Virus record (IMG/VR): IMGVR_UViG_3300033149_000741
Location: 1-29,614 of that record
Origin: a virus
Length of the DNA stretch: 29,614 bases
Strand: one strand, 5' to 3'
The notes beneath the pieces are model-generated. The model saw nothing but the letters and a program-made list of their open reading frames with translations, did no database searches and had not been told where the DNA came from. The translations under genes and the position numbers were made by a program. Positions 5,245 through 19,817 of the stretch are shown here, one piece after another; within the stretch, counting starts at the first letter, position 1; the number at the start of each line of letters is the position of its first letter.

Positions 5245-5745
5245 CTATTTCACCTGCCGATTAATAAGTTTAGCGTAGGGTACCAATTCATTTTTATGCA
5301 CCCATTGGGAGTGAAGAAAATAAACACTATAGTAGCCATGGTATAGAATTTCTACGATAGAATCTTTAGGATTCTTTTGAGTTCGGACCGCTGTTAATTT
5401 CGAAGCTCTTATAACCCTGCATGATTTATATCTATTTACGATAATGGGATTATATGTGCCGCCATCTTTAAGTATTTTATTATAAACATGCACGTAATCT
5501 TTTCGTTTCCCACAGGTGAAAGTTTTACGGTTTAAAATGTATGCGCCCTTTGGATTCTTTTTCACACCCAATCTAAAATCCTGATACTTCTTGCAATCAC
5601 TCATTAACCGGGTTCTATCAGACTCGTTAAGATATCCATTTGTAATGATCTGTGCCGATACACCTTCGAAACAGTTAGCGCTACCACCATATGCAACCGT
5701 GGAATTGACGATTAATACAATGAATAATACGTATAGTAATTTCAT
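5245..5745 (-). CDS. predicted exported protein with four cysteines
   Basis: A 166-residue protein with a clear Sec signal peptide (basic start, hydrophobic stretch LLYVLFIVLIV, cleavage likely near residues 19-23). The mature part has exactly four cysteines (C25, C51, C78, C109), consistent with two disulfides in the periplasm, and a Lys/Tyr-rich body. Phage proteins of this kind can block superinfection or modify the envelope, but no family is recognised. A GGAG ribosome site lies within the loop of a small hairpin just upstream, directly after the tRNA-like element. Confidence 0.7.
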   Translation of the reverse strand: MKLLYVLFIVLIVNSTVAYGGSANCFEGVSAQIITNGYLNESDRTRLMSDCKKYQDFRLGVKKNPKGAYILNRKTFTCGKRKDYVHVYNKILKDGGTYNPIIVNRYKSCRVIRASKLTAVRTQKNPKDSIVEILYHGYYSVYFLHSQWVHKNELVPYAKLINRQVK

Positions 5746-5748
5746 GAT

Positions 5749-5765
5749 AATAACTCCATGTTATT
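5749..5765 (-). promoter_or_regulatory. small hairpin carrying the ribosome site of the exported protein gene
   Basis: On the minus strand the arms AATAAC and GTTATT form a perfect 6-bp stem around ATGGA. The GGAG ribosome site begins in this loop, and the hairpin abuts the CCA of the tRNA-like element. It may mark a processing point or tune translation. The stem is AT-rich and weak, so its significance is uncertain. Confidence 0.3.
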
Positions 5766-5890
5766 TGGTGGGAAGGGTGGGACTCGAACCACACATTACC
5801 GACATCCTCTCGGGCATCCCTTTGACGGGTTCCTTTATGTCGTTTGCCGTTTTACCGACTTTCAGCGTCTACCAATTCCGCCACCTTCCC
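5766..5890 (-). tRNA. atypical class II, tRNA-Leu-like element with encoded CCA
   Basis: The 125-base minus-strand RNA has a perfect 7-bp acceptor stem (GGGAAGG/CCTTCCC) followed by ACCA. The 5' part (TGGCGGAATTGGTAGACGC) is the D-arm of tRNA-Leu. A T-loop TTCGAGT sits on a stem that pairs fully only if one base is bulged (GTG-T-GG with CCCAC). The centre is unusual: it is about 40 bases too long, and instead of a canonical 5-bp, 7-base anticodon arm it offers a 6-bp CGACAT/ATGTCG stem around 31 bases. No anticodon can be assigned. It could be a decayed tRNA, one with an insertion, or a tRNA mimic. A consensus promoter lies immediately upstream. Confidence 0.55.
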
Positions 5891-5902
5891 ATTAATAACT
5901 TA

Positions 5903-5931
5903 ATTCTATGCTATCTTGCCTAGACCGTCAA
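5903..5931 (-). promoter_or_regulatory. sigma70-type promoter for the tRNA-like element and region 1
   Basis: On the minus strand TTGACG (5926-5931) and TAGAAT (5903-5908) are separated by exactly 17 bases, 5/6 matches each to the -35 and -10 consensus. Transcription would begin near 5896, a few bases before the tRNA-like element's 5' end at 5890. It may read on into the exported-protein gene and the accessory operon. Confidence 0.7.
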
Positions 5932-5940
5932 TATGGAATA

Positions 5941-8559
5941 TTACCGAAATACCTCGCCTGCAGTCTTAGTATTAGTAGATGCTAATATTCCCTGAGATTC
6001 TTGATATGCTTTAACTACCGCGCCGGCTGTTGTCAGATTGCAGTGTACATGGCCATTTTTAATAAATAATTTCGGCTTGCCTTCGTCGAGCGCTATAAAA
6101 TTATTTACTCGACCCTCGTGTAATGCAGGGTGCCAGTCATACCCGAGCGACTGCAATAATTCTCGACGCTTGTTGTGTGGTATTGCCCGTGTCATGTGCA
6201 TAGATTCTAATATTCGCTGTATTGCCTTTGACGAGATCCAGCCACCGGCGAAGCCTGGGCGCCCCTCGTCGATTGCTTCGATGATCTCCTGCTCAACGCC
6301 ACCCATTGACGCTGTAATCGCCTCGTCGGTGCTGCTGGTCTCTGGTGCACGGTGACAAGCGGTCGCGGGATTAAGTGCGTCTGGTATCAAATAGCTCGTC
6401 AGGAAATCAGCGACAATGGCGTAACCACCCCCACGCAACCATTTGTAAATATCCGGGAAGTAATCACCACTCATGCCGTCGCGCTCAATATCGCTATGGC
6501 TTTGCTGCGCTGTATAGAACACGCAAAATCGACGGTCGTTTCGTGTCTTACGGACTGCATCCTTATGGTTACTGTTGAACATAAAATTACATCGGGTGTC
6601 GTGCATCTTTTGATCGGTTTGCATTGCACGACGGGCCAATCGATCATTGGTAATCATTGGCTTGATTATTTCAATAACTTCGCGTTTTTGATCTGGTACG
6701 TAGATATCTTCGACACCGATAAATAATGTGTTAAATAACCACGCGTTAAATTTCTCCGATATCTCGTGCGCTGGTGGCATGTGGACGTATCTATCGCCGA
6801 TCGCGAACGCTACGCATCGGGTAAATAGTGTCTTGCCGTTACCCTCAACACCCTGCAGCAATGGAGCCCATTGGAATTTAACGCCCTTATGTTGAATACA
6901 CGCGGCCATGTATGCCAGTAAAATAGATTGATCACCTTGATTGGGCAATATCTTGGCAAGGTGTGTTAGGAATGGTGTCGCGTCTCCGACTTGGCGCGGG
7001 GTTTCGATAGGTACATACGTGTTAACTAAAATATGCCCTTCTTGTGCCACGAGTGCGCCCGGTTCCAGTTCTGGACGAAAGCACATCGATTCGGCTTTTG
7101 GATAGCGCACCGCCTGTGACTCGGTGAATGCCTCCCAAGCTTTGCGCGTTGTTTTACCGCTGGCGTCGCCTTCAAGCTGGAAAGAATAACCGCCGTATGT
7201 CGCGTTAAATTGCTCTGATTTTAAAAGCGATCCATTTGGCGTAAATACCCGGTGCTGATCTTGAATATAAACGCAACCTTTAAAATGTTCGATCTGTTGT
7301 GTTGCCCCGAGAAATTGGTATCCGGCTAAAATCTCGGGGCCATCTATATTTCCAAGCGGCTGACCTGCTGAATCAATAGCCGTCACCATTTCGATTAGGG
7401 CCTCGACAGTCTCGCTTCTGTTATTAATCCAAAAGCTAGCGGTAATAACTGACCCATGGCTCGCGCACAGTTTTAGAATTAAACTTTCTTCGCCGGCACA
7501 TTCAATAAGTTTTTGCGCTCGAATATTACTGGCCCATTTAATTTGACCGTCCGATCCTTTCAGTTTCGCGGCGCCGAATTGTATTGCGATCGGATCGTCG
7601 ACAATAGGATCGTTAGCGCTACCACCGGTATAAACAACTTCTTGCATCGATACCGCGCGGGTAATTGTACGAATAAGATAATCTGGTCGGTTCCATTTGT
7701 CGCGAATCAATCCCGAACACCACATTAAATTTAAAATTCGTTCGCAGTTGTTACCCGTCCAGAATGCCAAGTGCTGCGCGAGTGCGGCGTCGGCGCTTGA
7801 TTCGTCGTGATTACCGCTATCGCTACTGTCCGGGCTGTAGGCGGCCGCAAGTGCGTCCTGGTTGCCTGTCCAGAGATCATCGAAGCTGGCCGTATTACCA
7901 AACGTAGCCGCGGCGCTCTTCGTTGCCCGTGCCTTGGCCAATAACTCGTCGTTATCTTCCGTGCCATTCCATTCAGGTACCGGTGCGGTCGTCCATGTTT
8001 GATCTTTCGTTGCAGTTTTCGGCGGGAATAATTCGGCGGTCATGGCCGGTAACATTGCGCTGCAATCTGTTGCTGCCGATCCGATCGCATTCGTACCGGT
8101 GAGCGCTACGAAACGACTGTCGGTATAATACTCAAGATGCAGTGTCGTATTTTTACAGGCGTGATCCGGTGCAATGCCTTGGCCAATAATGTGGAGACCG
8201 CGCCCGGATTGCGATATTTCAACCGCTGCACCTGGAAGCCTTGCCAGTACATCGTTTGCGATCGGCGACCAAGTACCGTCGGATTGTAAACATTCGTCGA
8301 TATCAACAAAAAAGAAAGGATCGTTAACGGTGAATACAAAACCGACACCGTAATCGTCGCCAAATAGATGGGCGGTATTAATGGCCGTATCAGCATCAAC
8401 CCATATCGCAGGATTGTGCGCATTGTCGACGTTCGTTGTCTTACAATCGACTGGTAATTTATCCATTTTGCCCGATTGTTTTTTACTCGGGACTAATTTA
8501 TAGAGAACAAATTGCTTGTACGCCGCCAGTGGGGCGAGCGCATCGGGTAATGAATGCAT
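5941..8559 (-). CDS. primase-polymerase / SF3 helicase fusion (replicative primase-helicase)
   Basis: An 872-residue replication protein. The N-terminal domain (about 1-180) looks like an archaeo-eukaryotic PrimPol of the NrS-1 type: FVDIDE with D86 and D88 as metal ligands, and SGRGLHIIG with H123. A linker precedes an SF3/D5-like helicase domain with Walker A GVEGNGKT near residue 570, Walker B FIGVEDI, and an Asn-type sensor segment (FMFNSNHKDA). The C-terminal 150 residues may hold a winged helix for DNA binding. Such fusions prime and unwind at phage origins. It follows the regulator gene by 9 bases and probably shares its promoter at 9.1 kb. Confidence 0.88.
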   Translation of the reverse strand: MHSLPDALAPLAAYKQFVLYKLVPSKKQSGKMDKLPVDCKTTNVDNAHNPAIWVDADTAINTAHLFGDDYGVGFVFTVNDPFFFVDIDECLQSDGTWSPIANDVLARLPGAAVEISQSGRGLHIIGQGIAPDHACKNTTLHLEYYTDSRFVALTGTNAIGSAATDCSAMLPAMTAELFPPKTATKDQTWTTAPVPEWNGTEDNDELLAKARATKSAAATFGNTASFDDLWTGNQDALAAAYSPDSSDSGNHDESSADAALAQHLAFWTGNNCERILNLMWCSGLIRDKWNRPDYLIRTITRAVSMQEVVYTGGSANDPIVDDPIAIQFGAAKLKGSDGQIKWASNIRAQKLIECAGEESLILKLCASHGSVITASFWINNRSETVEALIEMVTAIDSAGQPLGNIDGPEILAGYQFLGATQQIEHFKGCVYIQDQHRVFTPNGSLLKSEQFNATYGGYSFQLEGDASGKTTRKAWEAFTESQAVRYPKAESMCFRPELEPGALVAQEGHILVNTYVPIETPRQVGDATPFLTHLAKILPNQGDQSILLAYMAACIQHKGVKFQWAPLLQGVEGNGKTLFTRCVAFAIGDRYVHMPPAHEISEKFNAWLFNTLFIGVEDIYVPDQKREVIEIIKPMITNDRLARRAMQTDQKMHDTRCNFMFNSNHKDAVRKTRNDRRFCVFYTAQQSHSDIERDGMSGDYFPDIYKWLRGGGYAIVADFLTSYLIPDALNPATACHRAPETSSTDEAITASMGGVEQEIIEAIDEGRPGFAGGWISSKAIQRILESMHMTRAIPHNKRRELLQSLGYDWHPALHEGRVNNFIALDEGKPKLFIKNGHVHCNLTTAGAVVKAYQESQGILASTNTKTAGEVFR

Positions 8560-12165: not shown

Positions 12166-12810
12166 ATGGAAACCTCTATTACAATTACCGTCCCACTCGA
12201 ACAGGACGCACTTAACGAAGCGGCCGCAAAACTTACTGACATGGCGTCGAGTATGGGCAAGGATCAAGATGCGACACCACCAGCCGCTACCGTTGCGACA
12301 CCACCAGCCGCTACCGTTGCGACACCACCAGCCGCTACCGTTGCGACACCACCAGCCGCTACGCCTCCGGTCGCTCCTGTAGGCGTCGAACTTGATACAG
12401 ATGGTATTCCTTGGGATTCGCGAATCCACTCGGGCAAGAAAACGAAGCTCGCTAAATCGCAACAATGGAAAAAGAAACGCGGCGTTGATACAGATTATGT
12501 CGCTCAAGTCGAAGCAGAACTTAAAGCAGCCATGGCCGCAAGCCCGGCCGCACCTGTTACCGCTACACCCGCTGTTACACCTCCGCCCCCGGCCGCTGTT
12601 GTTACACCTCCGCCCCCGGCAGCTGTTGTTGTCGGTGTTACTTTCCCCGAATTGATGTCGAAAATTACCAGCGCCCAGCTTACTAACGAAGTTGTGCTGG
12701 CTGCCGTTAATCGACAGGGTTTGCAGTCTTTGGCATTACTCGCAGCTCGCCCGGATCTGATCCCAGCGGTTGACGCCGAACTCTTCCCGGTCGTTGGTGT
12801 TCCGGCTTAA
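12166..12810 (+). CDS. repeat-rich hypothetical protein with a motif shared with the phage DNA polymerase
   Basis: A 214-residue protein. Residues 37-66 are four copies of an 8-residue Ala/Pro/Thr unit (ATPPAATV) and a second Pro-rich repeat (TPPPPAAVV, twice) lies near 138-155, so these are flexible linkers. Between them is ELDTDGIPWDSRI (75-87) then a Lys-rich stretch and KKKRGVD, a motif also present near the polymerase C-terminus. A predicted helical C-terminal domain follows. It is the first gene of the rightward operon, with an AAAGGG ribosome site 8 bases before the ATG. It may be a replication accessory or SSB-associated protein; function unknown. Confidence 0.7.
   Translation: METSITITVPLEQDALNEAAAKLTDMASSMGKDQDATPPAATVATPPAATVATPPAATVATPPAATPPVAPVGVELDTDGIPWDSRIHSGKKTKLAKSQQWKKKRGVDTDYVAQVEAELKAAMAASPAAPVTATPAVTPPPPAAVVTPPPPAAVVVGVTFPELMSKITSAQLTNEVVLAAVNRQGLQSLALLAARPDLIPAVDAELFPVVGVPA
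12271..12362 (+). repeat. 24-base tandem repeat, nearly four copies
   Basis: The unit GCGACACCACCAGCCGCTAC plus CGTT repeats exactly three times and then 20 bases more, in frame, encoding ATPPAATV units. The copies are identical at the DNA level, so copy number probably changes by slippage. Confidence 0.9.
12577..12630 (+). repeat. 27-base tandem repeat, two copies
   Basis: Two adjacent 27-base units encode TPPPPAAVV and differ at one base (GGCCGC against GGCAGC). They form a second flexible linker in the same protein. Confidence 0.85.
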
Positions 12811-19371: not shown

Positions 19372-19817
19372 AGCCCTAAATCCTCTAAGTGAATGTGTGG
19401 ACAATCCCAACCATAGGGAATGCCGTTGATTATCTTAGGCGTTCGTGACTTCCACAACCCACCCCACTCGATTTGATAACCGAGCATCGATGCAGCTTGA
19501 AAAAATGCAGCGGCCACCATGGCTAAATGTTCATACTCCCAGCTCGCGTGCCCATCCACGAACGCATAGAAATCGAGCGCTTCGCCGTAACCTGTGGCCA
19601 CATTGCGCTGGTGCAAACTTAATTTATCGTACCCGTCGGCCTTAGATTTACCAGCACTGAATAATTCAAATTGTCGATCAGCAGTTCGCAAACCAGCGTC
19701 GTCGCCATGACCGTAATCGACCAAGGTTAGCGTTATGGCTAGATCGTCAATCTCGATCAAACGAGGGTCAATACCTTCGCGGTTTCGTTTCGATCGGTTA
19801 CTGAGTGCGAACGCCAT
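19368..19817 (-). CDS. endolysin, L-alanyl-D-glutamate peptidase type (M15-like)
   Basis: A 149-residue peptidoglycan peptidase. Zinc ligands expected for M15C enzymes are visible: SLHQRNVATGYGEALDFYAF (H69, D82) and a C-terminal DCPHIHLED (D138, H141 or H143). WGGLWKS and GYQIEWGG are family context, and the first 60 residues match the usual N-terminal helix region (RTADRQFELF). It cleaves the peptide stem of murein at the end of infection. It has no signal peptide, so it needs the holins encoded just downstream. It follows the tail fibre genes. Confidence 0.85.
   Translation of the reverse strand: MAFALSNRSKRNREGIDPRLIEIDDLAITLTLVDYGHGDDAGLRTADRQFELFSAGKSKADGYDKLSLHQRNVATGYGEALDFYAFVDGHASWEYEHLAMVAAAFFQAASMLGYQIEWGGLWKSRTPKIINGIPYGWDCPHIHLEDLGL

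Follow-up and report, generated by a model that had tools for sequence, protein, structure and literature searches.

A tRNA-Leu-like RNA without an anticodon arm in a viral contig, and a virus-restricted set of RNAs that suggests tRNA mimicry

We analyzed IMG/VR virus record IMGVR_UViG_3300033149_000741, here called the window (the whole stretch, 29,614 nucleotides [nt]), which contains on its minus strand, at positions 5766 to 5890, a 125-nt RNA resembling tRNA-Leu in which a long centre stands where the anticodon and variable arms should be. The existence of a large, virus-restricted set of RNAs with the same plan suggests that these are tRNA mimics that have a tRNA-Leu frame, lack an anticodon arm and keep the determinants for leucyl-tRNA synthetase (LeuRS). 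The centre of the window RNA is not decisive and its T-stem is unusual in being bulged; therefore, we regard its membership of this class as fairly probable, and the whole explanation, in which the element encodes a free-standing tRNA-Leu mimic that lacks a decoding arm, belongs to a large virus-specific set and acts by the mechanism proposed below, as evenly balanced.

Results

The window RNA has a tRNA-Leu frame

Read along the minus strand from 5890 to 5766 (RNA position i is window position 5891 - i), the element has the order GGGAAGG-TG-GCG-GAATTGGTAGA-CGC-(70 nt)-GTG(T)GG-TTCGAGT-CCCAC-CCTTCCC-A-CCA. Its parts, with the candidate structures discussed below and the evidence for each, are as follows, all on the minus strand.

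5766-5890: tRNA-Leu-like RNA, 125 nt including CCA (direct reading, Rfam match)
5903-5931: sigma-70-type promoter TTGACG-17-TAGAAT, with a predicted start a few bases ahead of the acceptor stem (10 of 12 matches)
5884-5890: acceptor stem 5' strand GGGAAGG (Rfam alignment, direct reading)
5865-5881: Leu-type D-arm GCG-GAATTGGTAGA-CGC, with A14, A15, G18G19, A20a and A21 (direct reading)
5795-5864: 70-nt centre replacing the anticodon and variable arms and ending in U48 at 5795 (direct reading, fold and shuffle tests)
5847-5850: ACGG, which might pair with CCGT at 5828-5825 in a pseudoknot, 4 bp and weak (helix search)
5837-5842: CGACAT, 5' strand of a 6-bp helix (helix search)
5820-5826: GTCAAAG, which can alternatively be read as a degenerate anticodon loop holding CAA for Leu (four of five stem pairs form; 6.6% of shuffles do equally well)
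5816-5810 and 5802-5797: variable-arm-like hairpin TGCCCGA/TCGGTA, weaker, ending 2 nt before the T-stem (helix search)
5800-5805: ATGTCG, 3' strand of the 6-bp helix, 5 nt ahead of the T-stem (helix search)
5777-5794: T-arm GTG(T)GG-TTCGAGT-CCCAC with a single bulged T (direct reading, Rfam match)
5766-5776: acceptor 3' strand CCTTCCC, discriminator A73 and encoded CCA (direct reading, Rfam match)

The acceptor strands pair at all seven positions, U8 is present, the D-arm is of the commonest kind within the viral class, and the CCA is encoded at 5768-5766. In a 261-base search with permissive filters, the Rfam tRNA model RF00005 matched the element at 31.2 bits (gathering threshold, 29; E = 6e-5), not far below five class members (36 to 41 bits), and left 66 nt unaligned in the middle. 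A whole-window Rfam search at gathering level with faster filters missed the element, and ARAGORN called no tRNA there. No RNA family other than tRNA was found at the Rfam gathering level on the elements examined, and chance resemblance to tRNA is rejected by the Rfam score and the intact frame. An earlier reading made from the letters alone (the sequence-only reading) had described a 125-base tRNA-Leu-like RNA with a tRNA-like acceptor, CCA, D-arm and T-loop, and had named a covariance-model search as a check; direct reading and the Rfam match bear out that description. The element thus has the 7-bp acceptor, Leu-type D-arm, T-loop, A73 and CCA of a tRNA-Leu. A regular 5-bp T-stem was not found in it, one T being bulged (GTG(T)GG/CCCAC), as had also been noticed. 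The frame is of the bacterial tRNA-Leu type, intact apart from this single bulge.

A large set of such RNAs is found in viral DNA

Class members were collected by pattern scans of viral contigs, with patterns that fix the D- and T-loop motifs. A Leu-type D-arm and a T-loop lying 58 to 88 nt apart were found in at least 120 viral stretches, most of them well-formed tRNA-like RNAs, and the dominant acceptor was TAGTCAGG/CCTGACTA. Narrower scans for the same type returned at least 120 stretches with shorter centres and 72 with longer ones; 39 stretches had an encoded CCA, many with acceptors other than the dominant one. The total was at least 283 distinct centres of 26 to 120 nt, a handful being ordinary tRNA-Leu. 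In 257 gigabases of bacterial and archaeal genomes the dominant type had one match, in a Neisseriaceae metagenome bin, and we therefore regard it as a viral RNA; in viral DNA at least 35 loci matched the same pattern. We found no published description of such phage RNAs in the open-access literature.

Two to four copies were present in 36 of the 229 locus orientations examined, and the multi-copy phages shown as examples have up to four copies with a common acceptor and T-arm and unrelated inserts of 33 to 119 nt. The cultured Bacteroides phage BS-TP2, which infects Bacteroides salyersiae, carries a copy at 19550-19656, between annotated genes and itself unannotated. The loci come from diverse phages, no conserved neighbour gene was found for the class, and a tmRNA gene lies within a few kilobases of a class member in few loci only (L433, L209 and L555). 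A Bacteroidetes-type promoter, TAnnTTTG, stands directly upstream of 12 of 209 copies, against 1.1 expected, and other copies are preceded by the hairpin NNNNG-GAAAGA-CNNNN. More generally, an element of the form TTGAC-N-hairpin NNNNG-GAAAGA-CNNNN-AACAT, with a covarying stem, lies directly upstream of many viral tRNA-like RNAs (L187, L193, L206, L237, L241, L275, L297, L617, L638, L646 and others); it may act as a hairpin promoter for a phage RNA polymerase.

LeuRS of Escherichia coli requires A73, the A15-U48 pair, G18G19 and A20a, but neither the anticodon nor the variable arm; editing cannot do without the anticodon arm, whereas aminoacylation can (PMC9976931). U48, the base before the T-stem, was present in 157 of 167 centres and in 52 of 53 of another set, and no pattern required it. 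The D-loops of the class carry A15 and G18G19, the D-arm having been within the search pattern; A73 was found in 41 of the 53 members with other acceptors, and for much of the dominant set it was part of the pattern. The window RNA has A15, G18G19, A20a, U48 and A73. From these retained bases we infer that such RNAs may be leucylated.

The centres of the class are enriched in a helix next to the T-stem

For the shuffle tests, centres were counted as independent once near-duplicates had been removed. Anticodon stems of 5 bp closing a U33 loop were not enriched among the 162 non-redundant centres (2 found, 0.8 expected from shuffles). Relative to shuffles, these centres were strongly enriched in helices with exactly 2 nt between the end of the 3' strand and the T-stem (z = -10.3), with a smaller effect at 3 nt (z = -4.2) and nothing clear at other offsets. 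The separate set with other acceptors also had the helix ending 2 nt before the T-stem (z = -4.5). Where such a helix was present, a crossing second helix was modestly enriched (z = -2.9) and nested helices were not. In L470, L504 and L649, three pairs of the pseudoknot are changed on both sides and none is broken; four pairs have compensatory changes in a five-member family, six, with none broken, between L616 and BS-TP2, and two, more weakly, in a three-member family. These compensatory changes support a predicted H-type pseudoknot in several subfamilies of the class. Together, the results show that the design of the class is one in which a hypervariable pseudoknotted or hairpin insert replaces the anticodon and variable arms.

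In the inserts, neither start codons nor matches to their own genome segment are in excess. The idea that the inserts are short reading frames, second T-arms (two internal T-arms only) or antisense sequences directed at their own genome segment is unsupported, and an HDV-like (hepatitis delta virus-like) or theta ribozyme inside the insert was rejected: the BS-TP2 subfamily has a topology that is similar in part, with no family match and unfit stem lengths. Beside the class, L244 and L631 hold class II tRNAs with a Leu-type D-arm and a very long variable arm; their anticodon arm covaries and has the loop CTGTTTA, with the anticodon GUU.

The centre of the window RNA

The window centre measures 70 nt, compared with 31 nt in the ordinary tRNA-Leu L356, an excess of about 39 nt that agrees with the roughly 40 bases estimated in the sequence-only reading. 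ARAGORN, the Rfam alignment and the intron-removal test found no 5-bp/7-nt anticodon arm in it, again as that reading had held. The CGACAT/ATGTCG stem proposed there can pair (5842-5837 with 5805-5800), and with the tRNA arms enforced its nested fold is 3.6 kcal/mol better than the variable-arm fold, but the helix is within chance, since 14% of dinucleotide shuffles hold an equally good helix near the 3' end. The centre's fold is likewise within chance, being equalled by 6.6% of shuffles. The repeat of GTCGGTAA was confirmed at 5859-5852 and 5803-5796; the duplication or insertion suspected behind it has no support beyond the repeat itself, and by a rough hand estimate this 8-base repeat is a weak sign of duplication.

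Some enlarged phage tRNAs carry introns

Among class I tRNA-like elements with long centres, cutting a 42- to 65-nt insert out of the anticodon stem's 5' strand restored a perfect anticodon arm in 47% of 45, compared with 3% of shuffles. Class I elements of this kind are thus often real tRNAs. The intron tRNAs (L309, L313, L327, L340, L355, L359, L376, L382 and L405) are of at least two kinds, with introns either ending in GTTACTT or holding a hairpin and ACAGCAA. Introns in tRNAs have been reported from Lak megaphages (PMC6784885). The dominant Leu-like class gave no such signal (4%, compared with 3% of shuffles), and an intron was rejected there. The smaller Leu-like set with other acceptors gave a few candidates (11%, compared with 2% of shuffles) and may hold a few true introns. 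In the window, removing an insert gave only four of the five stem pairs and not a 5-bp/7-nt anticodon arm, and 6.6% of shuffles did equally well. A normal anticodon arm with an intron, the outcome that the sequence-only reading had set against its own proposal, was thus looked for and yielded this four-pair candidate only. For a group I intron the insert is far too short.

Promoter, neighbourhood and relatives

The promoter TTGACG-17-TAGAAT ends about 12 nt upstream of the acceptor stem and is the best promoter match of the region, in keeping with the dedicated promoter proposed earlier; in the surrounding kilobase, 6 promoter sites were found and 3.0 expected. The element and both its neighbours lie on the same strand: it sits in a 195-nt gap between a DNA primase/helicase gene (5941-8559) and the gene of a small protein that looks exported (5245-5745). 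A search with the primase gave 66 related loci, and the element was present in only one, contig IMGVR_UViG_3300033153_003224 (L002/L119). No cultured phage with DNA similar to the window was found. Upstream of the primase, three loci in which it is about 60% identical (L017, L018 and L025) have an enlarged tRNA-like element of another kind; downstream of the primase, two other relatives (L019 and L021) have ordinary tRNAs, namely tRNA-Arg and tRNA-His. Therefore, the primase neighbourhood seems, judging from these arrangements, to be a spot where tRNA-like cargo comes and goes.

The element in L018 (4342-4465; also L017 and L025) is a 124-nt class I tRNA-like element in which a long extended hairpin replaces the anticodon arm. 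In the window, AGTTATTA flanks the tRNA-Leu-like element on both sides (5746-5768 and 5890-5900), and on its 3' side AATAAC and GTTATT can form a hairpin whose loop holds the likely ribosome-binding site of the next gene. Elsewhere, the window has a direct repeat (1791-1933 and 2215-2357) whose copies, about 143 bases long, are 83% identical, and a protein with tandem ATPPAATV-type repeats (12166-12810) that adjoins an exonuclease gene.

Discussion

Proposed mechanism and competing explanations

We propose that the window RNA would be transcribed from its own promoter and would fold at the elbow like tRNA-Leu. The host LeuRS, which ignores the anticodon, would bind and probably leucylate it. 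The RNA, which could not decode, would serve a purpose other than translation, acting on a host factor as decoy or effector; candidate targets that read the acceptor, elbow or CCA end are LeuRS, EF-Tu and a tRNA-directed defence toxin. A broader hypothesis, which we hold tentatively and at slightly less than even weight, is that there is a widespread, undescribed family of phage noncoding RNAs with a leucylatable tRNA-Leu frame and a hypervariable pseudoknot or hairpin substituted for the anticodon and variable arms, kept in several versions at once and used against host tRNA-directed machinery, of which the window RNA would be a member from a phage outside the main host group.

Several observations weigh against placing the window RNA in this class. 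Its type of T-stem bulge is absent from CCA-bearing class members with an intact acceptor, collected with a pattern that required no perfect stem. The strong 6-bp helix stops 5 nt short of the T-stem, and at the 2-nt offset enriched in the class there is only a weak one. Several class members have Bacteroidetes-type promoters, and the window virus has a sigma-70-type promoter together with an encoded CCA. Finally, contig IMGVR_UViG_3300033153_003224 is the same virus, with no mismatch, and no diverged homologue of the window copy was found. Comparison across related phages, another check named in the sequence-only reading, gave this sole identical relative for the element itself. The proposal of a tRNA mimic rather than a translator is supported for the class, as a virus-restricted set with LeuRS determinants and no anticodon arm; for the window copy, in which the bulge is a possible sign of decay, it is at most probable.

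The bulge would also fit a decaying tRNA-Leu, that is, a phage-acquired gene disrupted by insertion or duplication and now drifting, as would the repeated GTCGGTAA, the degenerate CAA loop and variable-arm-like hairpin in the centre, and the primase relatives that lack the element, two of which have ordinary tRNAs just downstream of the primase, indicating that tRNAs come and go there. We consider this unlikely: the seven-pair acceptor, D-arm, T-loop, A73, CCA, U48 and promoter are intact and the decoding part alone is lost, which random decay would not favour, and this combination is seen again in hundreds of viral RNAs of diverse phages. If the element were instead a functional tRNA-Leu(CAA), an intron of about 33 nt would be spliced from the 5' strand of its anticodon stem, the place where class I phage tRNAs of the same collection have small introns like those known from Lak megaphages, and the window does have U33, CAA, A37 and a variable-arm-like hairpin. 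This is improbable, however, given that four of five stem pairs are restorable at best and as many are restored in 6.6% of shuffles, that the dominant-acceptor Leu-like class lacks an intron signal, and that the insert lacks the class I intron motifs GTTACTT and ACAGCAA (motifs judged by eye). To a natural tRNA scaffold, whose frame would merely stabilize the RNA, signal its processing and protect or present a variable payload that binds protein or RNA, we likewise assign little likelihood. The unrelated inserts behind a common acceptor and T-arm, in up to four copies per phage, are what a scaffold would predict, but the inserts lack an excess of start codons or of matches to their own genome segment, and retention of A73 and A15-U48 exceeds the needs of a stabilizer.

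Phage tRNA genes are usually counted as translation helpers. If it is true that hundreds of non-decoding tRNA-Leu lookalikes keep synthetase determinants, some of the tRNAs that phages encode serve a different role, annotation programs overlook or mislabel such RNAs, and a new route of host takeover or counter-defence could be revealed.

Comparison with known systems

The window RNA resembles bacterial tRNA-Leu (class II, RF00005) in its acceptor, D-arm with A14, A15 and G18G19, T-arm, U48, A73 and CCA, and differs from it in the missing anticodon stem-loop, the 70-nt centre and the bulged T-stem. In transfer-messenger RNA (tmRNA; RF00023), the ends form a tRNA-like domain and other structure, including pseudoknots, replaces the anticodon arm. 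Unlike tmRNA, the window RNA has a true D-arm, Leu and not Ala determinants and no tag reading frame, and it is much shorter; neither an Rfam tmRNA match nor a tag reading frame was found in the window with Rfam and ARAGORN. The tRNA-like structures of plant viruses and the bacterial Y RNAs (YrlA) imitate tRNA for purposes outside decoding. The plant structures, however, form the 3' ends of genomic RNAs, and several of them make their acceptor with a pseudoknot, and the Y RNAs open elsewhere, whereas the window RNA has its ends and arms in the ordinary order of a tRNA gene and belongs to a DNA phage.

The intron tRNAs of Lak megaphages (PMC6784885) are likewise phage tRNA-like genes enlarged in the anticodon region, but removal of the insert restores the anticodon arm in the class I elements studied and not in the Leu-like class. 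Theta ribozymes are also small structured RNAs linked to the tRNAs of gut phages, including tRNA-Leu (PMC10879173). No Rfam match to a ribozyme family was found in the window or in the class elements examined. Theta ribozymes are separate ribozymes downstream of phage tRNAs (PMC10879173), whereas the inserts of the class described here lie within the tRNA-like RNA itself.
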